Source: Planctomycetia bacterium (GTDB taxonomy: Bacteria > Planctomycetota > Planctomycetia > Pirellulales > UBA1268). Taken from it: a DNA stretch of 53,113 nucleotides. Shown here piece after piece: positions 34,239 through 53,113 of the stretch (position 1 is its first letter; each line of letters begins with the position of its first letter). The notes under the pieces are model-generated. The model was not told where the DNA came from and did not search any database. It saw only the letters and a program-made list of their open reading frames with translations. The stretch is taken from positions 1-53,113 of the forward strand of contig JAIOPD010000090.1 of NCBI GenBank assembly GCA_021414115.1, in the 5' to 3' direction. The translations under genes were made by a program, and so were the position numbers.

Positions 34239-35663
34239 CTACATCCGGCCCCACTGAGGGATCCATGCAAACAAGAGAATCGCCACCGCTGTGCCCAGCG
34301 CTGGAATCACCACCGTGAGCACGAAGATCGGACCATAGGCCCGCGAGTGGGTCTCCCCGCAGATGTGGTGAATCAACATCACGAGGTAGCCGTTGGCCGG
34401 GAGCGAATCGAGCGATCCCGACGCGATCGCCACAACGCGGTGGAGCGCCCGGGGCGCCACCCCGAGCTGGTCGATATAGATGGGCTTGAGGATCGGCAGG
34501 GCGATCGCCTGTCCACCGGAAGCGGAGCCCGAGATCAAGGCGATGACAGCGACGGCAACCGCCGCTCCGATAAGGGGGTCGCCGGGTATCGACGTGATCA
34601 GGTGAACGATCTGCTGGAACGCCGGCAGATCCTTCATTGCTGCGCCGAAGCCCACGATCGAGGCGGTCGCGCCGATCGCCATCAGGCCGTTGACGAATCC
34701 TTCCCCCACCGGTGTCCAGACGTCCGTCAGTTGCCGATGAAGAAGGACCACGGCCGCGACAACGCCGAGAAAGACCGCCAGGGCCGGATCCTCCGGCACG
34801 GCCGCAAGCACACCCCGCAGCCATTCCGCGGCCGGGCCCAGGGGCTCCAGGATCGCCCCTGCCCGGCGGGCTGCTCCCGGCAGAACGTTCAACCCGAGCA
34901 GCGTGACGACAAGCGGCAGCAGGGCGATGATGGGTGACGGATGCTTTCGCGATACGGCTGGGTCGCCGCCGGCCGCGTCTCGCGGCCGGTCCTCCCAGCG
35001 CTCCCCTCCGTCTACGGCACGGCGTATCTCGCGGTCGAGGTAGGCCTGCCCGGTCACGAACATCAAGACCGCGACGATCAGGCTCACCGGCCAGCCCGCA
35101 CGCGCATCGGTGAGGGGCATCCCGCTGGTGGCATCGACGAGATAGCGAATCGGAATCAGGTTTTGGATCTCGGGCGACCCCGCGGACGTCATCGTGAACG
35201 TGATCGAGCCGAATGCGATCGCCGCCGGGATGAACCGCCGCGGCAGCCCCGCGGTGCGGAAAAGTTGCACCGCGAGCGGATAGACCGAAAACCCGACGAC
35301 AAACAGCGACACGCCTCCATACGTGAGAACCGCAGCCGCGGCCACCACCGCCAGTGCGGCCCGGTGCGGCCCGAGCCAGCGGCCAACGTGCCGGGCGACC
35401 GAGTCGGCAGCCCCCGTCACCTCGTAGAGCCGTCCCAAGGCCGCTCCCAAGGCGAACACGAGATAGAAGTTGCGAACGTAGTCGGCGAAGCCGGCCATGT
35501 AGGGCCCGGTCATCGCGGCCACGGGATCATGACCGCTGGCCGCCACGATCCCGGCCGCGCACAGGGGCGCCACCACGAAGATGCTCCGGCCCCGCACCAC
35601 CAGCGTCATGAGCAGAACGAGACCGCCGAACAGTACCACGAGCGCGGGAATCGAACCGGCCAT
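34239..35663 (-). CDS. GntP-family permease
   Basis: The 474-residue product has about twelve membrane helices and the GntP features 'GSITFTMTSAGSPEIQNLIP' and 'ISGSASGGQAIALPILKP', followed by 'ASGSLDSLPANGYLV'. This family imports gluconate, other aldonates or hydroxy acids with protons. I chose the ATG at 35663 because GAGG lies 5 bases upstream. It is third after the oxidoreductase and alcohol dehydrogenase genes (18 bp gap), suggesting uptake of a sugar acid that those enzymes oxidise. An insert of charged residues near 215-240 links the two halves. Confidence 0.85.
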   Translation of the reverse strand: MAGSIPALVVLFGGLVLLMTLVVRGRSIFVVAPLCAAGIVAASGHDPVAAMTGPYMAGFADYVRNFYLVFALGAALGRLYEVTGAADSVARHVGRWLGPHRAALAVVAAAAVLTYGGVSLFVVGFSVYPLAVQLFRTAGLPRRFIPAAIAFGSITFTMTSAGSPEIQNLIPIRYLVDATSGMPLTDARAGWPVSLIVAVLMFVTGQAYLDREIRRAVDGGERWEDRPRDAAGGDPAVSRKHPSPIIALLPLVVTLLGLNVLPGAARRAGAILEPLGPAAEWLRGVLAAVPEDPALAVFLGVVAAVVLLHRQLTDVWTPVGEGFVNGLMAIGATASIVGFGAAMKDLPAFQQIVHLITSIPGDPLIGAAVAVAVIALISGSASGGQAIALPILKPIYIDQLGVAPRALHRVVAIASGSLDSLPANGYLVMLIHHICGETHSRAYGPIFVLTVVIPALGTAVAILLFAWIPQWGRM

Positions 35664-35681
35664 GAACGCCTCGCGGAAACC

Positions 35682-36812
35682 TTATTGAAAGCGGACGATC
35701 TGCCGAACTGCCTCGCCACGGGCCAGCCTGTCGAATGCCTCGTTGATGTCGCCAAGCCTGACGGTGTCGGTGAAGAGCAGATCCACCGGCAGCCGTCCGC
35801 CTTGATGCATCGCCACGTAGCGGGGAATGTCGCGGCGCGGCACCGCGGACCCCATGTAGGAGCCCTTCACCGTCCGCTCTTCGGTGACGAGCGTCACGGA
35901 CGGCACCGAGAACTGCCGCGAGGGATGAGGCAGCCCGACGGTGACCGTGGTGCCCCCGCGCCGGGTCGCCTCGTAGGCCTGCACGAGCACCCGTTCGATC
36001 CCCGCGCATTCGATCGCCGTATCGGCCCCGCCGCGGGTGAATTCCCTGACGGCAGCCACCGGATCGACGCGGGCGGCATCGACGACATCAGTCGCGCCGC
36101 ACCGCACCGCGAGTTCGAGCTTCGACGCCACGACATCGACGGCCACGATCGGCCCCGCGCCGGCCGCCCGGGCTCCGATGACGGCGGCGAGCCCGACCCC
36201 GCCCAGGCCGAACACGGCCACAGCCGTTCCCGCCTCGACGCGGGCCGTATTGAGCACGGCTCCCACGCCGGTCATGACGGCACAGCCAAACAGGGCGGCG
36301 GTGTGGAGGGGCAGGTCGTCTGGTATCCGCACGAGCGACTCGGCCGCGGCGACCGTATGCCGCGAGAAGGCCGATACGCCCAGATGGTGATGGAGCCGCT
36401 CGCCGCGGGCATTCGTGAACCGCGTGTTTCCCGACAGCAGCGTGCCCGCACTATTGGCCCGTGCGCCGTTCTCACACAGCGCCGCCCGTCCCGTTCCACA
36501 CGGCAGGCAGTGGCCGCACGCGGGCACGAACGCAAACACGACATGATCGCCGACACCAAACCCCGTCGTGCCGGGGCCGAGTTCACGGACCACCCCGGCC
36601 GCCTCGTGCCCCATGACCATCGGCATCACCCGCGGCCGCGTGCCGTCGATGACGGAGAGATCCGAGTGGCAGAGGCCCGCCGCGGCCACTTCGACCAAAA
36701 CCTCGCCCGGCCCCGGGTCGGCGAGATCGACTTCTTCGATCCGCAGCGGCTGCGACCGGGCGTAGGGAGCCGCCGCTCCCATCCCGTACAGGACAGCCGC
36801 CTCGGTTTTCAT
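35682..36812 (-). CDS. Zinc-dependent alcohol dehydrogenase (class III-like)
   Basis: The 376-residue medium-chain dehydrogenase has catalytic zinc ligands Cys48 and His69 with Glu70 ('GLCHSDLSV', 'MGHEAAGVV'). The structural zinc cysteines are 99, 102, 105 and 113 ('ACGHCLPCGTGRAALC'). The Rossmann motif is 'FGLGGVGLAAVIGARAAGA'. The pattern 'ERTVKGSYMGSA' is typical of the FrmA/AdhC-like branch acting on alcohols or hydroxymethyl thiols. It is cytoplasmic. It lies 12 bp after the Gfo/Idh/MocA gene and 18 bp before GntP. Substrate probably a hydroxy acid or sugar alcohol. Confidence 0.88.
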   Translation of the reverse strand: MKTEAAVLYGMGAAAPYARSQPLRIEEVDLADPGPGEVLVEVAAAGLCHSDLSVIDGTRPRVMPMVMGHEAAGVVRELGPGTTGFGVGDHVVFAFVPACGHCLPCGTGRAALCENGARANSAGTLLSGNTRFTNARGERLHHHLGVSAFSRHTVAAAESLVRIPDDLPLHTAALFGCAVMTGVGAVLNTARVEAGTAVAVFGLGGVGLAAVIGARAAGAGPIVAVDVVASKLELAVRCGATDVVDAARVDPVAAVREFTRGGADTAIECAGIERVLVQAYEATRRGGTTVTVGLPHPSRQFSVPSVTLVTEERTVKGSYMGSAVPRRDIPRYVAMHQGGRLPVDLLFTDTVRLGDINEAFDRLARGEAVRQIVRFQ

Positions 36813-36824
36813 GGCATGCCCCTG

Positions 36825-38291
36825 TCAGACGCGAGGCAGCTCGAAACCCTGGCGGTATTCGCGGCTGAACAGCGCGTTGGCGGCCGGATCGCTCGACCGC
36901 TCGGTCTGGGGATCGATCGTGAGCTCCCGGCCGAGCTTGAGCGGCGTCTGCGCGAAGTCGACGTCGTTTTCACTGAGGTGCGCGTCGAAAGACGCGAACG
37001 TCTCGAGCACATGCTTGTCGTCGGCTGCAAGGGTCGGCCGAGTGCCGAGGGGCACGACCTCGCCCAGCGTCCACGAGACGTTGCCGATATGGGCGATCGC
37101 GCTCGAGATATGCCCCTGCTCGATGTCGAGGTGGAGATCGGCCGGATTGCGGCTGCGGACGCCGGTGACGAAGTTGGCGAAATGGAGCTGATCGGTGCCA
37201 CCGGACCACTGGGCCAGTTCGTTGCCCTCGTAGTCGAAGGCGACACCGCTGTTGTATCTCGGAGTGACGACATAGCCATCCGTTCCCCACCAGATGTTGG
37301 CCACGCCCACCTTGCCGGCCTTCCGGGCGATCGTCGGCGGCGTCTTGATCTCGAGTCCGCGCACGTCCGAGATCAGGAGCGCGTCATCCCACTGGAAAAG
37401 CGTGACCTGACTGTTCGCGACATCGCCGTTGTCGCGGTAGCCGAGGCGGCCGCCGATGCTGACGACCCGCTTCGGCAACTCCGACTTGCCCAGACCCCAA
37501 CGGCCCTTGTCGATCTCGTGAGGATTCTGGTTGCCGAGGTCGCCGTTTCCGGTGACATGATCCCAGTGCCAATCGTAATGAAGATTTTTGCGGATCGGCA
37601 CGACCTTCGGGGCGGGGCCGGCCCAGAGGTCGAAGTCAATCCCAGGCGGCAGCGGCGCGGGCGTATCGACGAGTCCGATGCTTTTCCGTCGCTTGAAGCA
37701 GAGGGCATGCGCCACCTTCACGTCGCCGATCTTTCCGCTCCGCACGAAGTCGATCGCCTGCCGCATGCCTGTCATGCTGCGGCTTTGGGCCCCCATCTGA
37801 CAGATGCGGCCGAGTTTGCGGGCCCACTGCGTGATCACGCGGCCCTCCTCGACGTTGTGGCTGCAGGGCTTTTCCACGTAGACGTCCTTGCCGGCCTGCA
37901 TGGCCCAGACCGACATCACCGCATGCCAGTGGTTGGGCGTGGCGATCGAGATGATGTCGATGCTCTTGTCGTCGAGCAGTCGGCGAAAATCCTGTTCGAA
38001 TCGCGGCGGGCGGGGCAGGTCTTTCAGTTGCAGTCGCCGCTTCTCGAATCCTGCCGGATCGCAGTCCGAAAGCGCGACCACCTCGGCGTCGGGATTGGCC
38101 AGCCACTCGCCGACGTGGGTCCCGCCTCTGCCGCTGAGGCCGATCACGGCGACGCGGAGTTTGTCGTTCGGGCCCACGGTCCGCGTCGCTGCCGGCACTG
38201 CGGCCGCGTCATTCGCGCTGCCACCGCGGGCCGCGGCGGCAGCCGCGAGAGCGAGTGCCTGTCCAACGAAGTCACGGCGCGTGAAGTGCAT
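36825..38291 (-). CDS. Tat-exported Gfo/Idh/MocA-family oxidoreductase
   Basis: The 488-residue protein starts 'MHFTRRDFVGQALALAA', a twin-arginine signal. It has 'KLRVAVIGLSGRGGTHVG' (Rossmann), 'YVEKPCSHNVEEG' (EKP motif) and 'WHWDHVTGNGDLGNQNPHEID' in the substrate domain. It is longer than the oxidoreductase at 23873 and only distantly similar. I chose the ATG at 38291; the frame extends to 38408 through the conserved upstream element. It heads the operon with alcohol dehydrogenase and GntP permease. It probably acts periplasmically on a sugar with bound NAD(P). Confidence 0.9.
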   Translation of the reverse strand: MHFTRRDFVGQALALAAAAAARGGSANDAAAVPAATRTVGPNDKLRVAVIGLSGRGGTHVGEWLANPDAEVVALSDCDPAGFEKRRLQLKDLPRPPRFEQDFRRLLDDKSIDIISIATPNHWHAVMSVWAMQAGKDVYVEKPCSHNVEEGRVITQWARKLGRICQMGAQSRSMTGMRQAIDFVRSGKIGDVKVAHALCFKRRKSIGLVDTPAPLPPGIDFDLWAGPAPKVVPIRKNLHYDWHWDHVTGNGDLGNQNPHEIDKGRWGLGKSELPKRVVSIGGRLGYRDNGDVANSQVTLFQWDDALLISDVRGLEIKTPPTIARKAGKVGVANIWWGTDGYVVTPRYNSGVAFDYEGNELAQWSGGTDQLHFANFVTGVRSRNPADLHLDIEQGHISSAIAHIGNVSWTLGEVVPLGTRPTLAADDKHVLETFASFDAHLSENDVDFAQTPLKLGRELTIDPQTERSSDPAANALFSREYRQGFELPRV

Positions 38292-38316
38292 CGACGGTTC
38301 TCCTGCGAAAGAGGTT

Positions 38317-38424
38317 CTTCTGTATGGTTGTACGTCGGTTGGCGTCGCAGTGCCACATGAGGGCGGCACCCAGTTGCCAAAGCGGCCGGCATGAAAAACT
38401 GAAAGCAATGATTCGAAAAGTGCA
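38317..38424 (-). promoter_or_regulatory. Conserved upstream element, copy B (before the oxidoreductase operon)
   Basis: This is the partner of 34101-34205, about 70% identical by eye, ending 26 bp before the oxidoreductase start. It also overlaps the first codons of the truncated SGNH hydrolase on the other strand, so that remnant's left junction lies within it. Confidence 0.7.
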
Positions 38425-39946: not shown

Positions 39947-42562
39947 TCACCGCAGATGCGCGTCGAAAAACTCGAGCAGCGCCGCGTCGGCCTTCTCTGC
40001 ATCGGCCCCCTTGAACCCGTGGCCCGCACCCTCCAGCGTCAGGAGCTTTGCCTCGACGCCGGCCGCCCGCAGTTTCTCCACCAGCCACACCGATTGCTCG
40101 TGGGCCACGTACTTGTCTGCGGTGCCGTGGATGCAGAGCGTCGGCGCCGCGTCCGGCTTCACCCACGTGAGCGGACTGGCCTCGATGTACAACTTGCGGT
40201 GCGTCTCCAAGCCGCCGCCGAAAATCTTGGGCAGCAGATCCTTGCCGTCCACGCTGGTGTCCCAGTCGCTGACAAAATCGCTGGGGCCGTAGACGTTCAC
40301 CACGCAGGCGACCGCGGCTGACTGGTCGGCATTGCCGCCATCGCCCTCGAACCGGGGCACGTGGGGCGTGACGCCAAGAAACTGCGCCAGGTATCCCCCT
40401 GCCGAGGCGCCTGTCGCACCGATCCGGTCCGGATCGATCGCATACTTTTGAGCATTCGCCCGCAGCCAGCGGACCGCCGCCTTCGCGTCGTGAACCGCGG
40501 CGGGAAACCGATACCTGGGGGCCAGACGGTAGCTGATCGTGGCGGCCACGTAGCCCCGCTCCGCGAGGGTCATGCAGAGCTTGTCGCACGACTCCCGCCT
40601 TCCGCGGCACAACCCGCCGCCATGGATGCAGAGCACGGTCGGGAAGGGACCGGGGCCGCGGGCCGGCCGCGCCAGGTTCAGCTGCAGATGCTCGTCGTCG
40701 GGGTTCGCATACTCGATGCCGGTCTCCCAGACGACCCCCTCGGGCACCGGAATCCCGAAGTCCTTCTGCACGTCCCATCTGAGGCAGCTGTCGAGCAGGA
40801 TCGCCTTCCCGGATGTCGCAGGCTCGCCGCCGCCCGCGATCGTGTTGCGGCTTACGGTGAGCCCGTCGGTCGAGGTCACGTGGATCTGTGGCGTGGGGCA
40901 GTCCTTGATGGCGTTGCCCTTGATCGTGATCCGGTTGTGCGCGCCGGCCGGCAGCGGCCGGTCGGAATGGAGGAAGGCCGCCACGCGGATCGCCGTGTCG
41001 TGGCAACGGGTGATGATGTTGCCCTCGATGATCACGTCGTCGCCGCAGCCGGCCTCGAGCCAGTAGAACTCGGGGGAAAGTTTGATCGCCTCCATCCAGT
41101 TCTCCGTGAAGCGGTTGCCGATGATCCGGCCCTGCCCCGCCTTGATGATGGCCCCCCGCGAGCGGTTGAAGCCGAAGTCGCAGCCCTCGACCAGAAAACC
41201 GTTGCCGACGGCGTCGGCCGGTGCGATGACCGAGCCCCGGGGCAGGTTCAGAGGCTCATCCAGCGTCACCTCGTAGGCGCCGGCCAGCATCCCGAACTGG
41301 TTGTTCTTCATGCGGCCGTCCAGCTGCTGGGAGTGGAGATACTCCTTCTCGGCGTCGGTGATCGTTCCCGCGGGGGCGACGTCCAGCACCTTTGGGGCGG
41401 TGGCATGGCGGCCGGCGACCGTCGTCACCTCGACCGCTCCACCCTTTTTGATCCGCATCACGTGCTTCGCCAGCACCCGGGCCTTGCCGTTCGTGCACCC
41501 GGTCACGAGGTAGTAGTCGCCGTTAATCGCCACGCAGTCGTCGCCCATGAACCGCGCGACGCAGTCGCGATACGTCGGCCCCTGCGCCGCATGCTTGCTG
41601 TGAAAGGCGTCGGCGTTGAGCGACCGCATCCGGCGGACCGCCCGAGGCCGCGGGTCGCTGGCAGCCGGACGGCGGTCGACGCGGCAGCGGCTGTAGCTCG
41701 ATCCGTCGCAGCCCGACTCGAAAAACCCGAAACAGTTGGCGGCGTGGAGCGTGACGTTCTCCAGCCGCATGCCCGTGCACGCGTTCAGGAAGACGGCATG
41801 AGGCAGGATGCCCGAAGTCCATTCCACCCACGCGAGCGCTACGATGTCGCCCACCCGCTCCGTGCCGGGCTCGCTCTTCGAGGGGCCGGTCTTGGTGAGC
41901 CGGAGTGCCCGGTCGCCGAGCCGGTCGATCGTGAAGTCGTAATAACTGCCGAAGCGGAGCAGCCCCGTGTCGGGGGCGAAGATCTCGTATTTCCATCCTT
42001 TGCCGGCGGCGGCCGCGGGATAATCAGGAAACAGCTCGATCTCATGCACCAGTTTGTCGGGGGAGAGTCCGGTGATCCGCCCCTGCGTGAACGGGAGCGG
42101 GTCGTAGTCGATCGTCAGGCCGGAGAGCGTGACGTTCGTGCAGTTGGCGAAGGTGATGGCCGCGGTCGGCTCGGTGCAGATCATTTCGGCGTTGTCCGCC
42201 ACGATCTCGACGCCGTCGAGGCCAGCCAGGAGCAGGTGGATGCGCACCGTGTTCCCTTCAGCGGCCGGCACATGCAGGTTCCGTTCGTCGTCGCCGGCGA
42301 CCTCGCGGCGCGCGAACTCGGTCGCCGCGACCCGGTGACGACCGGGGGGCACGACGATCCGCTTCTTGCCGGCCTTCACTTCCCGGTCGATGAACCCCTG
42401 CAGATCGAACGGCTTTCCGGGGTCGGCTTCGGCTCCCCCCTGCTCCGCCGCCCTCGCCCCCACGGCGACGAGCATGAGCACGCCACACACGACCGCGACG
42501 AACCGCCTCGACCGCAACAGGCGGCCGACGATTCCGGCGATGAGCGGCGCTCGGTTGCTCAC
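39947..42562 (-). CDS. Fusion: right-handed beta-helix domain plus alpha/beta esterase
   Basis: The 871-residue exported protein (signal about 1-38) has two parts. Residues about 45-590 form a pectate-lyase-like beta-helix ('NCTNVTLSGLTIDY', 'IIEGNIITRCHDTAIRV', 'ITIKGNAIKDCPTPQIHV'). After about 625 comes a BD-FAE-type esterase with oxyanion 'CIHGGGLCRGRR', nucleophile 'GATGASAGGYLAQF', acid in 'CIHGTADKYV' and His in 'EGAGHGFKGAD'. The GTG start overlaps the beta-propeller stop by four bases (GTGA), so the two are coupled. It may bind or cut a glycan and remove its ester groups. Each half alone would be a normal-sized protein, so this could be a recent fusion. Confidence 0.82.
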   Translation of the reverse strand: MSNRAPLIAGIVGRLLRSRRFVAVVCGVLMLVAVGARAAEQGGAEADPGKPFDLQGFIDREVKAGKKRIVVPPGRHRVAATEFARREVAGDDERNLHVPAAEGNTVRIHLLLAGLDGVEIVADNAEMICTEPTAAITFANCTNVTLSGLTIDYDPLPFTQGRITGLSPDKLVHEIELFPDYPAAAAGKGWKYEIFAPDTGLLRFGSYYDFTIDRLGDRALRLTKTGPSKSEPGTERVGDIVALAWVEWTSGILPHAVFLNACTGMRLENVTLHAANCFGFFESGCDGSSYSRCRVDRRPAASDPRPRAVRRMRSLNADAFHSKHAAQGPTYRDCVARFMGDDCVAINGDYYLVTGCTNGKARVLAKHVMRIKKGGAVEVTTVAGRHATAPKVLDVAPAGTITDAEKEYLHSQQLDGRMKNNQFGMLAGAYEVTLDEPLNLPRGSVIAPADAVGNGFLVEGCDFGFNRSRGAIIKAGQGRIIGNRFTENWMEAIKLSPEFYWLEAGCGDDVIIEGNIITRCHDTAIRVAAFLHSDRPLPAGAHNRITIKGNAIKDCPTPQIHVTSTDGLTVSRNTIAGGGEPATSGKAILLDSCLRWDVQKDFGIPVPEGVVWETGIEYANPDDEHLQLNLARPARGPGPFPTVLCIHGGGLCRGRRESCDKLCMTLAERGYVAATISYRLAPRYRFPAAVHDAKAAVRWLRANAQKYAIDPDRIGATGASAGGYLAQFLGVTPHVPRFEGDGGNADQSAAVACVVNVYGPSDFVSDWDTSVDGKDLLPKIFGGGLETHRKLYIEASPLTWVKPDAAPTLCIHGTADKYVAHEQSVWLVEKLRAAGVEAKLLTLEGAGHGFKGADAEKADAALLEFFDAHLR

Positions 42563-44826
42563 CGCTGGCTCAGGGCCTTGGTCGGTGTGGATTTCGCCGC
42601 CGCCACCTTCGGGATGCCCGTGATCCGGCGGAACTTCTCCGCCCCGGCCACGTAGACGTCGCCGTCGACGAAGGCGATCGGGTTGCCTTCCATTTTGCCC
42701 ACGGGCGTCACCTCGGCCGTGCGGGGATCGATCCGCGCGAGTACGCCGTTCATGCCGGCCCAGATGAAGCCGTCGGGGCCCATCTGGAAGATGTATCGCC
42801 CGCGCCGGATGGAAGAGAACGCCGTGATGGGAGGCTGCGGCACCCGCTTCGTCCAGAGCACCTTTCCGGCGGCCGGATCGAATCCATACAGCAGCCCGCC
42901 GTCATCGCCATTTTTCTGCGGCGCGTAGCCCATCACGAGCCCCGGCATGGCCTCGGTGATGTAGCCCGGAAACGTGTCGAGCCGCTCGTCGTCAACCTTG
43001 TGGATGATTTCGTGGGTCTGCGTGTCGTAGACGAAGAGCCGGCCCCGCGGCGGGATGTAATCGGGATTGTCTCGGCCGGCGACCGGCTTCGTCGAACAGA
43101 CGATGTAGCGGCCATCCGCGGCCGAGCACATCCAGAAGATGGTGTCGGTGTCGAACGCATCGTGGAAGCCACCGGCCTTCTTCTCCTTCGTGTCCCACCA
43201 GCCGAGGCCGCCGCCGTTGCCGATGCGGACCACCTTGCCCCCGAAGTAGATCCGGCCGTCGGCCCCTGCCGCCGCTGCCCAGGGCATGTGGACGTCGGAG
43301 AATTCCTTCAGCATGCCCACGTTGGCCGGGTTCGTGGTGGGCATGGCGGCCCCCGATTTGTTGTTTCCCCCCTTCGCTCCGTCTTCAGGCGGCGCCTCGA
43401 CGGACAGGCCGGCCGTCCATGGTTGAGAAGGATCGTAGATCCAAGTCTGGGAGCCAGGGTAGCCGCAGATGTAGAGCTTCTCCTGGAAGGGCAGCACGGA
43501 ATAGACGGACATCGTCTGGCCGAGATGCGTCCGCTTCTTGGTCTTCGGGGCGTATCGGACCGCGCGGGCATAGCCTTCGGACAGCGCGAAGATCGAGTCA
43601 TCGGGCAGGACCGTCATCCGCCGAATGGGTGCCGGATAGAGCGTCAGACCCTCGAGCATGATCTTCTGCCACTCGCCGACCTTCACGTTGGCGGCCTCCG
43701 CCATGGCGGCGTCTGTGTAGCGATACCAGATCAGCACATTGCCCGCGTTATCGACACCGTTCCGGATGATCTCGACGCCCTTCGGCGGATTTGCCGCGCC
43801 TTCGGCGCGGCCGAAGAAATTCCGCCGTGGCGCGGCGAGTGTCTCGTCCTTCCAGGGTGGAATGGGAGTGGTGTTGTGTGCCACCGGCTCGCACGGCGTC
43901 AGTTCACCATTCCGTAGCCAGAACGCCTGCTTCTGGTCACGGGGACTGCCCTTCATGCCGGTGATCGTGACGTACACGCCCGGATGATTCGGGTGTTGCC
44001 GGAAGGTGATCGTTTCTCGGTCGCCGATGAACCGCTCGGTCTCGGCGATGACGCTGCCCTGCCGCGTCTTCACGTTCATGCCGTAGAGCCGCCACGGCGT
44101 GTGGCCATAGCGGGCGTAGATCCAGTCGCCATCCATGACGACGCCCCCATATTCCCAGCCCCGAGTCGAGCTCGGGGGGCCGACCTCGCCGAGAAACTCT
44201 CCCTTCAGTGTGACGGGATCGATCGTATAGAAGCCCACACGGTCGCGATTCTTCTTGTCGACTCCCAGGGCGCCGAAGCCGCCGAGCAGTGTGCCGTCCT
44301 CGTTGGGGGCGAGTTGCCCGTCGCCAGTGACCACGTCCTCACCGACCGGCAGACTCCCGAACGCGAGCGTGTTGGTGGCCGGGTCGTACGTGTGGATCTT
44401 CACATCCTTGGCCCCGATGCCCGGCTTGATGAGCATCTTTCCACCGATGAGGAAGTAGGGAACGATATGGAAGTTGTTCCCTGTCTTCTCGTTGATGGCT
44501 TCCCGCTTCAGCTCCTTCGTCACCGTGTCGTAGATGAAAATCTGATGGGGGCCCTGGTAGCCCTTGTTGTAGATGAACACCATGTCCCAGGTTTTGCCGT
44601 CGGGGTTGGGCACCCACCAGAGCGGACCCTCCCAGCAGGAGTCGGGTCCGTCGGCGACGTCCTCGAACTTGAGTTCCGGTGCGGCGTCGATCGCGGCCGC
44701 GAGGCCCGGCTGATCGACGGGCTTCCATTCGATCCCGGCCGCGCCGTTGGCGAGCGTCCCGACGATCACGGCCGCCGCCAGAATCAGTGCCGTGAGTCTC
44801 CGCATGACTGCGACCGCCTTGTGCAT
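42559..44826 (-). CDS. Exported beta-propeller protein
   Basis: The 755-residue protein has a signal peptide (about 1-31, 'LTALILAAAVIVGTLANGAAG') and repeated propeller blades: 'HQIFIYDTVTKEL', 'VKIHTYDPATNTLAFG', 'KLYICGYPGSQTWIYDPS' and 'GLLYGFDPAAGKVLW'. These resemble PQQ-like/YncE propellers. No catalytic residues are evident. It may be a binding protein or a polysaccharide lyase of the propeller type, but that is inference. I chose the ATG at 44826 because the signal peptide starts there. It diverges from the beta-helix gene across 140 bp and is coupled to the fusion gene. Confidence 0.75.
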   Translation of the reverse strand: MHKAVAVMRRLTALILAAAVIVGTLANGAAGIEWKPVDQPGLAAAIDAAPELKFEDVADGPDSCWEGPLWWVPNPDGKTWDMVFIYNKGYQGPHQIFIYDTVTKELKREAINEKTGNNFHIVPYFLIGGKMLIKPGIGAKDVKIHTYDPATNTLAFGSLPVGEDVVTGDGQLAPNEDGTLLGGFGALGVDKKNRDRVGFYTIDPVTLKGEFLGEVGPPSSTRGWEYGGVVMDGDWIYARYGHTPWRLYGMNVKTRQGSVIAETERFIGDRETITFRQHPNHPGVYVTITGMKGSPRDQKQAFWLRNGELTPCEPVAHNTTPIPPWKDETLAAPRRNFFGRAEGAANPPKGVEIIRNGVDNAGNVLIWYRYTDAAMAEAANVKVGEWQKIMLEGLTLYPAPIRRMTVLPDDSIFALSEGYARAVRYAPKTKKRTHLGQTMSVYSVLPFQEKLYICGYPGSQTWIYDPSQPWTAGLSVEAPPEDGAKGGNNKSGAAMPTTNPANVGMLKEFSDVHMPWAAAAGADGRIYFGGKVVRIGNGGGLGWWDTKEKKAGGFHDAFDTDTIFWMCSAADGRYIVCSTKPVAGRDNPDYIPPRGRLFVYDTQTHEIIHKVDDERLDTFPGYITEAMPGLVMGYAPQKNGDDGGLLYGFDPAAGKVLWTKRVPQPPITAFSSIRRGRYIFQMGPDGFIWAGMNGVLARIDPRTAEVTPVGKMEGNPIAFVDGDVYVAGAEKFRRITGIPKVAAAKSTPTKALSQR

Positions 44827-44966
44827 TGTGTGCCCTTTACTGATTCGTGGCCGAACATCATGGTGCGCACCATGGATACATCCACGTTGCGTACAGCGAA
44901 TGCCGTTCGCGCGATCGCAGCGATTCAGCATAATGCAATCCCTGGCTGTCGGGTGCTCGGCAATGC

Positions 44967-46826
44967 TTGCAGATTCCGGGTCGCCGCTTTTACTTTTTTA
45001 AGAGTCGTGCGTTGACCTCAGTTGCGTTCCATCGAATCGATATCGGATCGAAGCTGCCACCGTTAGCCGCAACTGTCATCGACGCCATCGGCAGGGCCAG
45101 ACTTTGCCTGACGCTCGTCACTGCGGCGATTGGCGTTGGCGGCTGTGTGCAGGAAACCCCGTCCCTGACGCTGCACAGTCTCCACCCGCCTGTGCTCAAA
45201 CCACAGGGGCAGGAGTTTCGGTTTTGGCGGAACGAGACGGTGTTCACACGCACCTATCACGTGGATGGCGGTTCTCCCAAGGCGTCCGATGAGAACCCCG
45301 GCACGCCAGATCTTCCCTTCAAAACCATCAATCGCGCCGCCGCCGTCGTCGCTCCGGGTGAGCGGGTGCTCGTTCACGCAGGCCTCTACCGCGAGTGTAT
45401 CCGCCCCGTGCGGGGTGGCCTCTCGCCCGCGCAGATGGTCGCCTACCAGGCAGAAGGCGAGGTGACCGTCCGGGGCTCCGAACTGGTGGGAAGCAATTGG
45501 ATTTCTCAGGGCGAGGGCGTTTGGGGGCTCGATCTGCAAGCCATGGAATTCGGCGACGACAACCCCTTCGAGTTGGACAACCTGCCGGATGCATCCTTTG
45601 GCATCATGAGCTGGGCAAAGGAGCTTCGCGGCAAGCCTCCTTACACGCTGCCCAGGGGAATGGTCTTCTTGGATGGGCAGCGTCTGCAGCGGGTTGCGAC
45701 CCGTGATGAACTGCTGCGCACGCCCGCCTCGCACTGGACCGATCGCGAGGCGCGCCGGCTCCTCATCCACCTCGGTCCCGGCAAGGATCCCAATCGCCTG
45801 CCATTGGAAATCACCACGCGCGGCAGTTGTTTTCGGCCGCGTGTCCGCGGACTGGGCTTCATCCAGGTCTGCGGCTTTGTCTTCGAGCAGGTGGGCAATG
45901 GATTTCCACGGCCGCAGGAAGGCGCAATCTCCGTCGCTGGCGGGCACCACTGGCTGATCGAGAAAAATACCGTCCGCCAGGTCAATGGCATCGGCATTGA
46001 TATCGGCGACGGCTGGTACGGTGGCGCCGTGCAATCCTCGGAAGAGGGGCTGGGGCGTGCGGGCTGGAATATCGTTCGCTGCAACATCATCACGCAGACC
46101 GGCGTGTGCGGTATCGCGGGCCATCCTGCTCGCGACGCCCTCATCGAAGAGAACCTGCTGAGCGAGAATACGCTCTACGAGATCGGGAACATCTACGAGT
46201 GCGCTGCCATCAAAACGCACCGCAACCGCGGCACGCTCATTCGGCGCAATCTCATCACCAACAACGCCATCAACGGCATCTGGATGGATTGGGATAACCG
46301 CGACACCCGCTGCACCCAGAACGTAGTCGTGAATTGCAACACGGGAATCTTCATCGAGGCCTCCGTCGTCGCCCCGTTCTGCCTGATCGATCGCAATGTC
46401 GTCTGGGGTGCGAAAAACGCGATCGTCGAGCAGGACTCCACAAATCAGCGATTCCTCCACAACCTGGTCGGTCGGTCGGCTGCCGGCATCGTGCTACGCG
46501 GCGAGGTCAGCCAGCGAGTGGTGACGTGGTGGCCCTGGCGCATGACCGCGGGCGGTGGCCATACCATCGCCAACAATGCCTTCGTCGGGGTTGCAGCGCC
46601 GATCAAGCAGTCCCCCAGCCCGGAGCCCAACACGCTCACCGGCAACGCCTCCACAGGCCTCGCCCGCTCCCTGGATCTGGCCAAGTGCATCATGATGTGG
46701 GTCGCCACTCGGCCGCTGGCGGCGCTGTATCCAGAGTGCCTCGTAACAGAGGATTTCAGCGACCGCACCCGGCCGCCGGGATCCGCGAGCGATGCCGGCG
46801 AAGCTCTGCCGAGAGCTGCTCGGTAA
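44967..46826 (+). CDS. Beta-helix protein, probable lipoprotein, with unusual C-terminus
   Basis: The frame has no good ATG: a TTG at 44967 or 45012 is the best start, giving about 604-619 residues. A lipoprotein-like signal is seen ('LTLVTAAIGVGGC'). The mature part is a planctomycetal right-handed beta-helix: 'YHVDGGSPKASDENPGTP', 'PFKTINRAAAVVAPGERVLV', then helix turns such as 'LIRRNLITNNAINGIWMDW'. Such folds often cut or bind polysaccharides. The last ~35 residues look non-homologous, and the 3' end overlaps the converging sulfatase gene by 71 bp, so the C-terminus may be truncated or read-through. Moderately sure. Confidence 0.7.
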   Translation: MQIPGRRFYFFKSRALTSVAFHRIDIGSKLPPLAATVIDAIGRARLCLTLVTAAIGVGGCVQETPSLTLHSLHPPVLKPQGQEFRFWRNETVFTRTYHVDGGSPKASDENPGTPDLPFKTINRAAAVVAPGERVLVHAGLYRECIRPVRGGLSPAQMVAYQAEGEVTVRGSELVGSNWISQGEGVWGLDLQAMEFGDDNPFELDNLPDASFGIMSWAKELRGKPPYTLPRGMVFLDGQRLQRVATRDELLRTPASHWTDREARRLLIHLGPGKDPNRLPLEITTRGSCFRPRVRGLGFIQVCGFVFEQVGNGFPRPQEGAISVAGGHHWLIEKNTVRQVNGIGIDIGDGWYGGAVQSSEEGLGRAGWNIVRCNIITQTGVCGIAGHPARDALIEENLLSENTLYEIGNIYECAAIKTHRNRGTLIRRNLITNNAINGIWMDWDNRDTRCTQNVVVNCNTGIFIEASVVAPFCLIDRNVVWGAKNAIVEQDSTNQRFLHNLVGRSAAGIVLRGEVSQRVVTWWPWRMTAGGGHTIANNAFVGVAAPIKQSPSPEPNTLTGNASTGLARSLDLAKCIMMWVATRPLAALYPECLVTEDFSDRTRPPGSASDAGEALPRAAR

Positions 46827-49644
46827 TCTCGCGGGCCTCGGGGCGATCCGCCAGGTTGACGCGCTCGTCTGAGTCGGACTCGTGGTCGAAAAGCATTCGG
46901 CCGGCCACGACGCCCCGTGGCCCCGAGTACTCCGTGAACCGGTGGCTGTCGGTGCGGATCGTCTCGCCCGCGCGAAAGCGGCCTACGGCCGCGGGCTTAC
47001 CCGGCAGGCCGGGATTGGAGAGCAGCGGCACAAAACTCTCGCCCTCGAGGTGCGGCGGCAGAGGCAGGTCGGCCAGTTCGCAAAGGCTTGGGTAGATGTC
47101 AATGAACTCGACGAGCCCCCGGGCCTTCCCCCCGGCAGGCTTGCCTGGCGCGGCGACGACGAGCGGCGTCTGCATCGAGGTCTCGTAGCAGCAGTGCTTG
47201 CACCACAGCCCGTGCTCGCCGAGGTTCCAGCCGTGGTCGCCCCAGAGCACCACGATCGTGTCGTCGGCGAGGTCGAGCCGGTCGACGGCATCGAGGAGTT
47301 GGCCGATCTGTGCGTCGACGAAACTCACGCACGCGCGGTAGCCATGGATCAGCCGCCGCGCCTGTTCGTCGGTGAGTGGTCCCGCCGCCGGCATGTCGAC
47401 GTAGCGGCGGAGTTCACTCCAGTCAGTGAGGGCCGCCGCCGGGACATCCGTCGGCGTGAGCCGGTGATCGGGAAGCACGATGCGGGCAGGGTCGTAGAGG
47501 TTCCAGAACCGCTGCGGCGCCACGAACGGCAGGTGCGGCTTTTGAAAGCCGACCGCCAGAAAGAACGGTCCCCCGCGGGAAAGCCGCTCGAGTTCCGCGA
47601 CCGCGCGGGTCGCGAGCACGGCGTCGCCGAGGCGTTCATCGGGGCCATCCGCGGCTTCGGTCGCCGGCCCACGCAGCCGCGGGTCGATTTTCCCCCTGGC
47701 GAGATGCGTCTCGAGGTTCGCGGAAACGGTATACGAGGGCAGGTTCGGCCGCCACTCGGGCTCCGACCAGCCTGCCGCCGCGTCTCCGCCCACGTGGAGC
47801 ACCTTGCCGAGCGACACGGTGCGGTAGCCATGGTTGCGGAAGTGTTCGTGGAGCGGCGTCACGTGCGGAGCGTCGCGATCGACCGCGGTGTCATGGGAGA
47901 GAAAACGCAGCGGCGTGGGGCGGATGCCGGTCATGAGACTCGCCCGCGAGGCGCCGCAGACGGGCACCATGCACGACGCCCGCTCGAAGAGCGTGCCCCG
48001 GGCGGCGAGGCGGTCGATGTGCGGCGAGCGGATCTCCGCCTGGCCGTAGCAGCCGAGTTCCGGCCGGAGGTCGTCGACGGCGATGAAGCACACGTTCGGC
48101 TGTCGGGCCGCGGCTGCCACCGCCGCGGGCTTCCGTCGGGCCGGCATCGGCGCGCCGACGCTTTGGCGCCAGGCGGCCAGCCGCACGGCAAGTTTTTCTG
48201 TCAGCGCGGGCTCGGCTTTGGAAATGTCGCGGGCCTCGCCGGGATCGGCAGCGAGGTCGTAGAGTTCGACCGAGCCATCCTCAAACCGCTCGATGAGCTT
48301 GTGGCGACCCACGCGGATCACACCCACCGGCTTCGTCCGCCACTCGTCGCGGGCGGCCCGCTCCACCTCCGCCCCGAGATATCCGGGAAAATGCCAAAAC
48401 AGCGCGCGGTCCAGCGGCTGTCCGCAGCCTTTCGTGAGGAGCGGCCCCAGATCGACGCCGTCGACCGGCTGCTTCGGCAGGGCCACGCCGGCCACCGCCG
48501 CCAGCGTAGGCAGGATGTCGACCGTGATCACGGGCTCTGCACAGGTCGCCCCGGCGCGGATCGACCCGGGCCGGGCCGCGATGAACGGCACCCGGATCCC
48601 GCCCTCGAAGAACGTCGCCTTGCCTCCGCGGAGCGGACGGTTATCGGTGATCTCCGGCCTTGGCAGGCCCTCACGGGCATAGCCGCCAACGCCGCCGTTG
48701 TCGCTCGTGAAGATCACGAGCGTCTCTTCGGCGATGCCTGCCTGCGCGAGCGACGCGACGATCCGGCCCACGCTTTCGTCGAGGCTGGCGATCATCGCGG
48801 CGTAGACCGGGCTCTTCTGGTCGCCGACGGTGGGTTTCTCGGCAAACCGCGCGACGAGCTCGGGCTTGGCCTCGAACGGAGCGTGAACGGCGAAGTGGGG
48901 CAGGTAGAGGAAGAACGGCTCGTCGCGATGCCGCGCGATGAAGTCAACCGCCTTGTCGGTGAGGAAGTCGGCCAGGTAGACGCCGCGGGGCACGTCTACG
49001 GGGGGCACCGTGCGGAAATCGTAGTGGCCTTGCTGCGCGATCCCGCCGACGACGAGAGCCTCGTCAAAGCCGCGTCCGGAAGGATGATCGCGGGTTTCGT
49101 CGAGGTGCCAGTTGCCGAACATCCCCGTGGCGTAACCCGCAGAACGAAGCACGTCGGCGATCGTCGCCGTGCCGGCGGGAAGATGATGCCGATTCTCCAC
49201 GGGCACGAGGGGCCGCCGCGAGGTGTCCCACCGTCGCGTGCTTCCAACCGTGTAGACGCCGGTCCGCGGCGCATATTGGCCGCTCAGCAGCGCGGCCCGC
49301 GTCGGCTGACAGTTGCTCCCGGCCGAGTAGGCATCGGTGAATCGCATGCCGTTCGCGGCGAGCCGGTCAATGTGCGGGGTTTCGTGGTAGCGGTTGCCGT
49401 AGCAGCCGAGGTCGGCCCAGCCGAGGTCGTCGGCGAGGATCACGACGACATTTGGCGGGCGAGCTTCCGCGCCCTCGGTGATTTCACCGGCATCGGAGCG
49501 GAACACGATCTCCCGCGGCACGGGCTGGTGGAGTTTCAGTTCCAGCCGCGAGCCACTGTCGATCGGATCGCCCTTTGCGACCGCGACGGTCGCGAGACCG
49601 GCGAAGATCGCGATGGCGAGGCGACGCACCGTGGCCAGGTTCAT
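46756..49644 (-). CDS. Tandem double sulfatase (two fused sulfatase domains)
   Basis: The 962-residue exported protein (signal about 1-25) contains two sulfatases. Domain 1 (about 64-510) has 'NVVVILADDLGWAD' (Ca ligands Asp72-Asp73) and the formylglycine site Cys112 in 'NCQPTRAALLSG'. Domain 2 (about 525-950) has 'NVCFIAVDDLRPELGCYG', its formylglycine site Cys563 in 'VCGASRASLMTG', and 'FQKPHLPFVAP', as in iduronate-2-sulfatase-like enzymes. An Ala/Arg-rich linker joins them. Both appear active by motif. They should remove sulfate from two positions of one glycan, after Cys oxidation by a maturation enzyme not seen here. It follows the heparinase-like gene by 40 bp. Confidence 0.9.
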   Translation of the reverse strand: MNLATVRRLAIAIFAGLATVAVAKGDPIDSGSRLELKLHQPVPREIVFRSDAGEITEGAEARPPNVVVILADDLGWADLGCYGNRYHETPHIDRLAANGMRFTDAYSAGSNCQPTRAALLSGQYAPRTGVYTVGSTRRWDTSRRPLVPVENRHHLPAGTATIADVLRSAGYATGMFGNWHLDETRDHPSGRGFDEALVVGGIAQQGHYDFRTVPPVDVPRGVYLADFLTDKAVDFIARHRDEPFFLYLPHFAVHAPFEAKPELVARFAEKPTVGDQKSPVYAAMIASLDESVGRIVASLAQAGIAEETLVIFTSDNGGVGGYAREGLPRPEITDNRPLRGGKATFFEGGIRVPFIAARPGSIRAGATCAEPVITVDILPTLAAVAGVALPKQPVDGVDLGPLLTKGCGQPLDRALFWHFPGYLGAEVERAARDEWRTKPVGVIRVGRHKLIERFEDGSVELYDLAADPGEARDISKAEPALTEKLAVRLAAWRQSVGAPMPARRKPAAVAAAARQPNVCFIAVDDLRPELGCYGQAEIRSPHIDRLAARGTLFERASCMVPVCGASRASLMTGIRPTPLRFLSHDTAVDRDAPHVTPLHEHFRNHGYRTVSLGKVLHVGGDAAAGWSEPEWRPNLPSYTVSANLETHLARGKIDPRLRGPATEAADGPDERLGDAVLATRAVAELERLSRGGPFFLAVGFQKPHLPFVAPQRFWNLYDPARIVLPDHRLTPTDVPAAALTDWSELRRYVDMPAAGPLTDEQARRLIHGYRACVSFVDAQIGQLLDAVDRLDLADDTIVVLWGDHGWNLGEHGLWCKHCCYETSMQTPLVVAAPGKPAGGKARGLVEFIDIYPSLCELADLPLPPHLEGESFVPLLSNPGLPGKPAAVGRFRAGETIRTDSHRFTEYSGPRGVVAGRMLFDHESDSDERVNLADRPEAREITEQLSAELRRHRSRIPAAGCGR

Positions 49645-49684: not shown

Positions 49685-52600
49685 CTAGGGGCGTCCTTCG
49701 CTGAACGTCGCCGGCACGTTGCCGGAAACCGCGTGGCCGTCGCCGGACCGGTTTACGATCACGTTCGTGGGCAGGCGGACGGTGTCGCCGACGCCGATCT
49801 CGTAGGTCTTGGCGGTGACCCGCCCGTCGCCGTTGGCGTCGGTAAACACCGCCTCGGTGAGCGTCGCCCCGGCGGGCCGCCTGATCACCTTCCCGTCGCG
49901 GAACGCCCAGGCATGGTCCTCCGTGGTCACGGTGTAGCCGGCCTGCTTCCGGTTTCCATCCTCGATATGGAAGATTTTCTGGTTCGTCTCCAGCTGGATC
50001 GCGTCGTCGCCCTTGACCTGCAGCGACGTGACGAGCCCCTCGTGGACGAGCAGGTCGTCGGCGTAGGTGAACTCGCGGCCCTTGCCCGTGAGCGGCACGT
50101 AGGTGCGGCGGCCGTCGTTGCCGATGTCGGCGTAAGTCGCCGCGCCGAGGTCGGCGTCGAGCGTGATCGTCCGCTTGTCGTAGTCGACGGCCGTGATCCG
50201 CGCCTCGGGCACGGCCTGGGCCGCCGTGATCGTGGCCCCGGCGAGGTCGAGCTTCGCGGCCCCGTTCAGCTGGGCATACCGCACGCCTTTCGCGTCGCGG
50301 GAGACCACGCCGAAGACGTCGCCGTCGAGTGAATAGGTGTCGACCTGGCCCGAGGTCGTGGTCACCCGCACGACGAGCGGCTCGCGGCTGACGATCTCGG
50401 CCTTCTTCACCACCGGCGTGTCACCGCGGTACCACTCGTAGACGGCCGGATAGACCGACGTCGTGCCGGCCTTCGCCTGCCGTTGCACCCAGAGGAACGG
50501 AAACGCATAGGCATACCGCTGCGAGAACGGGCTCCCCTCCAACACGGTGTCGCCCTCCACGCCCAGCAGCGTGGCCCGCGTGCGGGCCGGCGGCAGGGCC
50601 GCGTCGTAGCGGTCGCCGAGCACGGCCTGCTCCGCGGCCACGGTCTTGATCACGCCGCCGCCGTTGAAGTCGTGCGGCACGTCGCGGGCCTCGCGGGTCA
50701 TCGTCCAGGTCGCCACGAGCGTGGCCGGCGCGCGGCCGGCCTTCTGGCTGCCGTCGAGCAGTCGGTCGGTCCAGCGAACCTCCTTGGCCTCCAGCGGCGT
50801 GTTGACGTCGATCCCCTGGCTCTCACAGCCGTGGAAGCACCAGGTGTGGTTCGCCCCACCGGCAAGCCGCTGGATGTCGAGGCAGTAGTGCGTGCCGTCG
50901 TCGCCCACCGGCATGAGGAACACCTCGCGGTCGATGCGGACGGCTCCCGACTTGTCGACGTAGCTGGCCCGCACGAGCGGCGGCTCGAACGCGCGCAGCC
51001 ACGGCTCGCCGTCCTGCCCGCCCGCCACCTTCGGGTCGTCGGTGTCGTGGGCGATGGCGTGATTGTGAAGGAAGGCCCAGGTTGCCGAGGGCCGAGACCA
51101 GGTGTGGTTGCCCTCGTTGCGGCAGGCGAGGTCGACCGCCACAGGGAGGCCGAGCCCGAAGAGATTCAGATCGAGATAGTCAGCGTGGGCGTGGCCTTGG
51201 CCGGTGCCTAGCCGCAGCGTGGCGGCCGTCTTTTTCAGCACGTCCGTCTCGTCGGAACCGGCTTCCACCACCGCTCCCCAGTCGGGGACGACTCGCGAGC
51301 GGGCATGGAGGATCGGATCCCGTTGCCCCGCCGCAGCCTTGACGATCTCAGGGGATGTCTGGCCGAACCGATTCGCGAGCAGCCAGGCGTGCCGCGGGCT
51401 GCCGGTCAGGTCGAAGGCATGCCGGTTGCCTTCCGCGTGAATCTTCAGGATCCTGTCGCCGTGCTCCCGGCCTGAGTGCGGGCCGCCCGCGTCGTCGCCG
51501 ACCATGAACGGAAACCCGCCGGCCACCCACACGTCGATGAGATACTCGCTCGCGCCCCGCACCTTCGTGAAGCGGTTCAGATCGGAGATGTCCATCTTCA
51601 GGGCCACGCCCTGCCGCTGCGCCGCGGCGAGCTGGGCGGCCTTCGTCAGCGTGTTCCCCGCGCTGCCCAGCATGTATCCCAACGAGCCGATGTGGTAGGC
51701 ACCGCAGCGGTTGAGGGCGGTCGCGTAGATCTCCTGGTAGGTGCCCGAGTAGGGCCAGAGTGCCGTCACCTGCGAGGTGAGGTCATAAAACTTCGCCGTG
51801 GCCGGGTGCGGCCCGAGCACGGTGGCGGCGATGTCCGTCACCGGCGCCACCCGCATCAATCCTCGCTCGAAGTCCCGGACGCCCGCGAACACGAGATACT
51901 GGTCGAGCAGCGCCACGACGTCGTCGGGCGTCTTTACCCAGGGGATGAACCGGTTGACCGAGTCGGCGAAGATCTGATTGCCCTGGATGTAGGGGAAGAG
52001 CTGGTCGTAGGCGGTCATGAGATCGACCTGCATACCGCCGGACCAGCCGGCGTAGAACAGCTTCCCGTTGCGGCCCCGCGTCCAGTCGGTCGGGTGCTCG
52101 TAGTCGGGGGAATGCGAACAGAGCCGCTGCTCATGGAGGCTCATTTCGAGGGCGGGCCAGTCGTAGGCGAGCCGCACGAGCGCCAGCGCCGCGTCGTGGC
52201 CCACCTGCGGGTCGCCGTCGGCGAAATACTTCGCCGACAGGCTCATGCCGCGGTAGTCCCAGGTGCCGAGGAGGCCGAGGAACAGCTGGACGCGCTTGCC
52301 GAGGAGATCGGCCCGGGGCGTGGCGTAGATGTCGTGGGGTAGCTGCGGGTGCTCCGCCTTCGTGTAGAGCACACCGGTGCCGTCGTCCGGACAGCCGCCT
52401 GGCAGCGGCTCGCCGGCAAGAATCTTCTCCTGCGGGAAGATCTCCTTCGTGTCGAGGTTCACGAGGTCGAGCGGGCTGATGGCACCAGCCTGAACGCTCT
52501 TCGTCTTGCCGTCGCCGAACGACGCCGTCTCCCAGCGGGGCAGGCCGAGCTTTTGCGCGGCTGCCAGGAAGGGCGGATCCTGGCCATGCACCTGGAGGTG

Positions 52601-53113
52601 GACGTTGAGCGGCGGAAACGTATGCCAGACGAGGTCGTCCCGCTTTCGGCGGGCCTCGTCGAGCGACTCCAGCCGCCGCATCGGCTTCTCCGGAGTTGCG
52701 AGCGACTGCTTCCTCTTGATCGGGCCGACGGGCAGCCCCGCGAGTTCGTCGGTCATCACCACCTTCATCAGCCGCGCGGTCTCCTGGCCGCGTTCGCCCA
52801 CGCGAAACGTCACCGTGTGGTCGCCGGGCCGGTCGACATGGAGATGAAAGCCCTGGAGCCGCCGGGGGGCGAAGCCCTGCTTGGCGAGCCGCCGGCCGTG
52901 GGCCACGAGATTCCCCGCGGCGTCGCGGGCCTCGAACTCGATCGGGCACGGCTTCCAAACGCGTTCGAGCTGGTCGCGGCCGGCGGGATCGATCGTGCCG
53001 TAGAGCGTGAACGTGGAGAGACCGATCTTTAGGTCGGGGAGCTTGATCGTGACCGGCGCGTCGCCGGGCTTGAGGGGCACGTAGGTCTCGTCGATCGTGA
53101 ACTCCCGGGCGTT
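49685..53113 (-). CDS. Heparinase II/III-like polysaccharide lyase (5' end beyond window)
   Basis: The frame stays open to the right edge, so only the C-terminal ~1142 residues are seen. A GTG at 53080 is not a real start. Early residues form a beta-sandwich ('GFHLHVDRPGDHTVTF'). A large alpha-helical domain follows ('HPTDWTRGRNGKLFYAGWSGG'). Then comes a heparinase II/III-like domain with 'LGTGQGHAHADYLDLNLFGLGLP' and 'NEGNHTWSRP', which carry the expected His/Tyr catalysts. The C-terminus is beta-rich. The family cleaves uronic-acid polysaccharides by beta-elimination. It is followed at 40 bp by the double sulfatase, fitting a sulfated uronan target. Confidence 0.8.
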   Translation of the reverse strand, partial: NAREFTIDETYVPLKPGDAPVTIKLPDLKIGLSTFTLYGTIDPAGRDQLERVWKPCPIEFEARDAAGNLVAHGRRLAKQGFAPRRLQGFHLHVDRPGDHTVTFRVGERGQETARLMKVVMTDELAGLPVGPIKRKQSLATPEKPMRRLESLDEARRKRDDLVWHTFPPLNVHLQVHGQDPPFLAAAQKLGLPRWETASFGDGKTKSVQAGAISPLDLVNLDTKEIFPQEKILAGEPLPGGCPDDGTGVLYTKAEHPQLPHDIYATPRADLLGKRVQLFLGLLGTWDYRGMSLSAKYFADGDPQVGHDAALALVRLAYDWPALEMSLHEQRLCSHSPDYEHPTDWTRGRNGKLFYAGWSGGMQVDLMTAYDQLFPYIQGNQIFADSVNRFIPWVKTPDDVVALLDQYLVFAGVRDFERGLMRVAPVTDIAATVLGPHPATAKFYDLTSQVTALWPYSGTYQEIYATALNRCGAYHIGSLGYMLGSAGNTLTKAAQLAAAQRQGVALKMDISDLNRFTKVRGASEYLIDVWVAGGFPFMVGDDAGGPHSGREHGDRILKIHAEGNRHAFDLTGSPRHAWLLANRFGQTSPEIVKAAAGQRDPILHARSRVVPDWGAVVEAGSDETDVLKKTAATLRLGTGQGHAHADYLDLNLFGLGLPVAVDLACRNEGNHTWSRPSATWAFLHNHAIAHDTDDPKVAGGQDGEPWLRAFEPPLVRASYVDKSGAVRIDREVFLMPVGDDGTHYCLDIQRLAGGANHTWCFHGCESQGIDVNTPLEAKEVRWTDRLLDGSQKAGRAPATLVATWTMTREARDVPHDFNGGGVIKTVAAEQAVLGDRYDAALPPARTRATLLGVEGDTVLEGSPFSQRYAYAFPFLWVQRQAKAGTTSVYPAVYEWYRGDTPVVKKAEIVSREPLVVRVTTTSGQVDTYSLDGDVFGVVSRDAKGVRYAQLNGAAKLDLAGATITAAQAVPEARITAVDYDKRTITLDADLGAATYADIGNDGRRTYVPLTGKGREFTYADDLLVHEGLVTSLQVKGDDAIQLETNQKIFHIEDGNRKQAGYTVTTEDHAWAFRDGKVIRRPAGATLTEAVFTDANGDGRVTAKTYEIGVGDTVRLPTNVIVNRSGDGHAVSGNVPATFSEGRP

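Follow-up and report, generated by a model that had tools for sequence, protein, structure and literature searches.

Planctomycetes have exceptionally many sulfatases, and the sulfates that each of these enzymes removes are mostly unknown. Two members of the phylum, P1 and P2, were found to have one gene with two sulfatase domains, the 5' part arylsulfatase A-like and the 3' part iduronate-2-sulfatase/choline-sulfatase-like, and a fusion of adjacent genes was proposed (Kim et al. 2016, PMC4807772). The IMG entries of these double sulfatases are 2643314295 and 2643291516. Sulfatase-glycosidase fusions occur in PVC bacteria (PMC6388578).

We analyzed a window of 53,113 nucleotides, which makes up the whole of contig C79 in a planctomycete draft genome (4.35 Mb, 144 contigs), and found that it carries a gene of this already published kind. 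As in P1 and P2 (PMC4807772), a single gene encodes two sulfatase domains that differ in origin, again in this phylum; in contrast, the present pairing of lobes and an asparagine (Asn178) in the first lobe are known from the window genome, the comparison being one of published domain descriptions. The PVC fusions (PMC6388578) resemble it in giving a sulfatase a second carbohydrate-acting domain, but the partner there is a glycoside hydrolase, whereas here it is a second sulfatase. What is unexpected here is the loss of a lysine from lobe 1 and an independent fusion in the reverse order. We consider it probable that the gene encodes a secreted two-lobe desulfatase which arose by fusion of neighbouring genes and acts on a sulfated uronan, with lobe 1 possibly impaired.

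Layout of the double-sulfatase chain

On the minus strand, 962 codons run from 49644 to 46756 without a stop, and the coordinates and cysteine numbers of the original prediction (Cys112 and Cys563) were exact. Pfam Sulfatase (PF00884) matched two stretches of this frame, at 9.7e-99 over the entire protein, and a genome-wide profile scan found the two domains, at 213 and 124 bits, in one shared stop-to-stop frame of 998 codons. The features of the gene are as follows.

46756..49644, minus strand: double-sulfatase open reading frame, 962 aa (open frame, Pfam, genome profile scan)
49576..49644, minus strand: predicted Sec signal peptide, residues 1-23 (MNLATVRRLAIAIFAGLATVAVA) (by inspection; model helix 3-24)
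49465..49575, minus strand: N-terminal extension, residues 24-60 (37 residues), unseen in other loci (sequence comparison)
48130..49464, minus strand: lobe 1, residues 61-505, S1_16-like sulfatase (Pfam, PDB matches, Foldseek, tree)
49309..49311, minus strand: lobe 1 formylglycine position, Cys112 in CQPTR (motif)
49111..49113, minus strand: lobe 1 Asn178, codon AAC, replacing the conserved active-site lysine (alignment)
48109..48138, minus strand: linker, residues 503-512 (ARRKPAAVAA), low-confidence in the model, probably flexible
46771..48108, minus strand: lobe 2, residues 513-958, S1_7/iduronate-2-sulfatase-like (Pfam, PDB matches, Foldseek, tree)
47956..47958, minus strand: lobe 2 formylglycine position, Cys563 in CGASR (motif)

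An AlphaFold model of the fusion, built on an alignment of double-domain proteins and lobe-2 singles, had a mean pLDDT of 82.7 and contained two folded lobes. The linker region (about 500-512) had a pLDDT of ~31 and the whole model a pTM of 0.55, so that the relative placement of the lobes is unfixed in the prediction. The sequence supports the earlier claim that the product would be a secreted single chain.

The start of a secreted, uncharacterised protein encoded on contig C45 (L202:1318-2859) was similar to residues 21-52 of the fusion, with 24 of 48 aligned columns identical and 16 gap columns; searches with this protein gave no Pfam match and no PDB match. Given this likeness, the fusion gene may be a three-part mosaic, although the match is short.

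Affiliation and active sites of the two lobes

The best PDB match of lobe 1 was 9FO1, the kappa-carrageenan sulfatase AMOR_S1_16A of subfamily S1_16 (E 7e-106, residues 62-502), which is the nearest solved structure, and in a tree of 136 domains the lobe fell among 42-47 single-domain relatives with a support of 0.97-0.98. Lobe 2 best matched 6HHM, an S1_7 ulvan sulfatase (1.9e-80), followed by human iduronate-2-sulfatase (IDS; 6.5e-64), and the same tree placed it among 18 single-domain relatives (support 0.98). A Foldseek search with the fusion model ranked 6HHM first (TM 0.91), with 6HHM and 9FO1 as the top two. The PDB matches and the tree thus agree with the proposal that the halves belong to different sulfatase branches, the second being iduronate-2-sulfatase-like (S1_7 type).

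In lobe 2, every residue examined was intact (D524, D525, C563, R567, K614, H617, H704, D803, H804 and K816), and the lobe deviated at 4 of 78 near-invariant columns of its clade. Its D803 and H804 form an Asp-His pair where the calcium site otherwise has Asp-Asn, a feature described for two S1_7 enzymes (PMC11760155). 6HHM is P18_S1_7, an endo-2-sulfo-xylose sulfatase of ulvan (PMC9096561). This enzyme and human iduronate-2-sulfatase, the nearest solved structures, have the Asp-His calcium ligands and the GKV.H and KPHLPF-type motifs in common with lobe 2; they differ in being single-domain, and as relatives they are distant enough that the substrate of lobe 2 is a guess.

In lobe 1, CQPTRAALLSG at position 112 meets the type I (S1) formylglycine motif C/S-x-P/A-x-R, the calcium ligands D-D-D-N are all there (D72, D73, D315 and N316), and C112, R116, H180, H254 and K342 are retained. 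Thus, both halves have the calcium ligands and formylglycine cysteine claimed for them (D72, D73, D315 and N316 with CQPTR; D524, D525, D803 and H804 with CGASR). Equivalents of the calcium ligands, CxPTR, H125, H149, H201 and K287 of AMOR_S1_16A are all found in lobe 1, the S1_16 His pair (H125 and H149) as H180 and H207. AMOR_S1_16A is, however, a single domain and has Lys123 and Trp79 where lobe 1 has Asn178 and Val133. Because the conserved Trp79 of S1_16 is Val133, we call lobe 1 S1_16-like and do not file it as S1_16.

The second substitution lies in GNWHL of lobe 1, where Asn178 stands at the position expected for the active-site lysine of GKWH (Lys123 of arylsulfatase A, ASA). This residue is a lysine in 50 of the 50 closest lobe 1 relatives (score >= 590 bits) and in 9FO1, 6UST and 7STT; in a set of ~114 lobe 1 sequences, one other lacked it (L064), and its cysteine was lost too. 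Across the near-invariant columns of the clade, lobe 1 deviated at 7 of 113, level with the most divergent of the 50 relatives. This lysine, Lys123 in both arylsulfatase A and sulfamidase, binds both formylglycine and sulfate; of seven tabulated enzymes, six have it, and the seventh, BcPMH, has a tyrosine (PMC4014121). The original description of two complete sulfatases therefore stands as to domain length, but with the near-invariant lysine gone it overstates the lobe 1 active site, and Asn178 argues that this lobe may not be an efficient sulfatase.

Taken further, Asn178 could kill catalysis altogether, leaving lobe 1 as a decayed or repurposed pseudo-sulfatase that binds sulfated glycan or carries lobe 2. 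The conservation of the lysine in the closest relatives and the three nearest solved structures, its contacts in six sulfatases (PMC4014121) and the 7 deviating columns all point this way, as does a genus-wide tandem sulfatase whose first lobe likewise has an altered active site (CxPSL, GKWW). However, the nucleophile cysteine with its arginine, all calcium ligands, His180, His254 and Lys342 are retained, and BcPMH of the same superfamily is an active hydrolase with its tyrosine at the site. The AAC codon, moreover, is one base from lysine, so that a sequencing error is possible and either this or a single base change could explain the asparagine. We regard loss of all activity as unlikely, though worth keeping in view: if lobe 1 were inactive, the protein would exemplify a sulfatase chain with a pseudo-enzyme module. 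We favour a two-lobe desulfatase in which lobe 1 is possibly impaired.

Double sulfatases elsewhere and the gene neighbourhood

Searches of 39 relatives and of a sample of 392 genomes from the phylum gave a match spanning both halves in the window alone; in one of these searches, the two best candidates per genome were scored. An orthologous fusion in relatives was thus rejected, and the same fusion in other planctomycetes, which the original prediction had suggested looking for, was not found in the 392 genomes. Single genes of both types are adjacent in L062, L069 and L071, that is, in 3 of the 46 lobe-1 relatives with flanking sequence, and neighbouring similar single genes occur in some planctomycetes and Bacteroidota. 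As support for an origin from a gene pair, conserved adjacency was weaker than hoped.

Another planctomycete family contains a 936-codon frame (L179:34-2841, G431:C3) in which the order is reversed, the S1_7-like domain coming before the S1_16-like domain. Both of its domains have the formylglycine motif and the active-site lysine. In the tree of 136 domains, its halves branch away from the window lobes, indicating that this fusion was an independent event. That the two types were fused independently, and in either order, suggests two specificities sharing one glycan, and this narrows the search for substrates.

In the genome of the window itself, about 5 of the 18 sulfatase genes have two sulfatase domains, and double sulfatases are frequent across the genus. 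With similar doubles already published, the arrangement is less singular than had been implied. Three of the about five double genes are consecutive on contig C140 (L031:5654-15192); the first adds a BD-FAE esterase domain, and the last, of 862 codons, has an incomplete first domain. In a different genome, a 2419-codon frame (L177:4074-11330, G006:C29) combines a GDSL lipase, DUF7133, HEAT and three sulfatase domains.

The fusion had originally been read as a single chain that could desulfate one saccharide at two positions in sequence; on this view, both lobes would be fully active and the fusion would have been selected for coupling. Most catalytic residues are intact in both lobes, and the independent reverse-order fusion suggests that linking the two types has value. 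Asn178 in lobe 1 speaks against this account, however, as does the predicted flexible linker with its unfixed lobe arrangement, which leaves channelling between the lobes unsupported by the model; and where fusions are generally frequent in a genus, one of them needs no special reason. We therefore think it rather improbable that both lobes are fully active and coupled, and retain the reading in which lobe 1 is possibly impaired.

The tandem sulfatase with CxPSL lies on contig C48 of the same genome (L032:5938-8700); its first lobe has leucine in place of the motif arginine and GKWW for GKWH. It is also present in L127, L128, L130-L132, L134-L137, L139 and L140. Relatives of this lobe, mostly in frames of single length, occur in 61 of the 392 phylum genomes searched, the own genome included, and CxPSL is retained in the 11 others that were read. 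Judged by these motifs, the CxPSL lobes form a conserved clade of sulfatases in which the arginine for formylglycine recognition is missing. It is conceivable, though we give it little credence, that the first lobe of tandem sulfatases here tends to lose catalysis and to turn into a pseudo-sulfatase with a glycan-binding or regulatory role, positioning an active second lobe. If so, the window protein, with one lysine lost, would represent an early stage and the CxPSL/GKWW lobe another case.

The surroundings of the fusion gene include the following three neighbours.

49685..53080, minus strand: upstream neighbour, putative polysaccharide lyase, distantly heparinase II/III-like, with its N-terminus on contig C45 (profile matches)
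44967..46826, plus strand: convergent right-handed beta-helix protein, overlapping the 3' end of the fusion by 71 bases (Pfam)
39947..42562, minus strand: beta-helix and BD-FAE esterase protein (Pfam)

The lyase-like protein of the window gave no direct Pfam match, including Hepar_II_III_C (PF07940), which was matched by 2 of 5 members of its family (best 4.4e-5). The family profile weakly matched the PL40 ulvan lyase Uly1040 over the HxH motif (E 0.0014). The claim of a heparinase-like lyase next door is supported as a distant likeness to heparinase II/III in a putative lyase. An AlphaFold model of this protein had a mean pLDDT of 45.7. The family is rare: a search of 60 relatives gave it in none of the other genomes, and the phylum sample contained three more genomes with it. 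The beta-helix and beta-helix/esterase proteins lie downstream of the fusion. Two further large open reading frames, at 34941-38360 (plus strand, 1139 aa) and 42559-44931 (minus strand, 790 aa), have no Pfam assignment. Since lobe 2 is closest to an ulvan sulfatase, our best guess for the substrate is an ulvan-like sulfated uronan, the similarity being distant.

The genome has six genes of the formylglycine-generating enzyme (FGE) family, and a search with TIGR03942 for the anaerobic sulfatase-maturing enzyme gave no match in it, which suggests maturation of both cysteines by FGE; CGASR of lobe 2 has alanine at +2. We propose that two co-directional sulfatase genes, probably adjacent, were fused in frame, one encoding a secreted S1_16-like sulfatase and the other a sulfatase of the S1_7/iduronate-2-sulfatase-like type, whose own signal peptide was lost. 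As adjacency is uncommon, the ancestral pair is something we infer. The product would be exported as a single chain, both cysteines would probably be converted by FGE, and the lobes are predicted to act as independent domains on a flexible linker of ~10 residues. Their shared target may be one sulfated uronic-acid-containing polysaccharide that is cut by the neighbouring lyase-like enzyme. Of the two lobes, we expect lobe 2 to be active, as a calcium-dependent hydrolase of sulfate esters. Lobe 1 retains the nucleophile, the calcium ligands and the other sulfate ligands, but it has Asn178 where a lysine would hold formylglycine and sulfate, and we expect it to be slower or otherwise changed.

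The join and the contig end

Homology to lobe 1 ends at ~502 and homology to lobe 2 begins at ~513. The single lobe-1 relatives have a variable tail past APMP at their end and the single lobe-2 relatives start directly behind the signal peptide, indicating that the join lies at the natural edges of both domains. Neither alternative frame across the join contained a signal peptide, and in none of the frames does a stop codon precede a separate start for lobe 2. Codon-position GC did not shift, and a search of the rest of the genome gave no separate, nearly identical version of either half. On this anatomy, the frames and the lack of separate copies, the frameshift feared near the linker (~505-525) is unsupported and misassembly was rejected; from its sequence, the join looks like a true gene fusion. 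That an assembly or sequencing artefact united two separate genes is most improbable, since, even in a 144-contig draft with strain variants whose window end matches C45 over 141 identical bases and then at 93%, both domains are left whole, lobe 2 has no signal peptide or start of its own, neither half has a near-identical copy, and the genome has four further double sulfatases and the genus many.

At the contig end, window positions 52443-53113 align with L176:10112-10715 on C45 over 141 identical bases, a 67-base gap and then 93% identity. By this alignment, C79 and C45 adjoin, with a strain variant.
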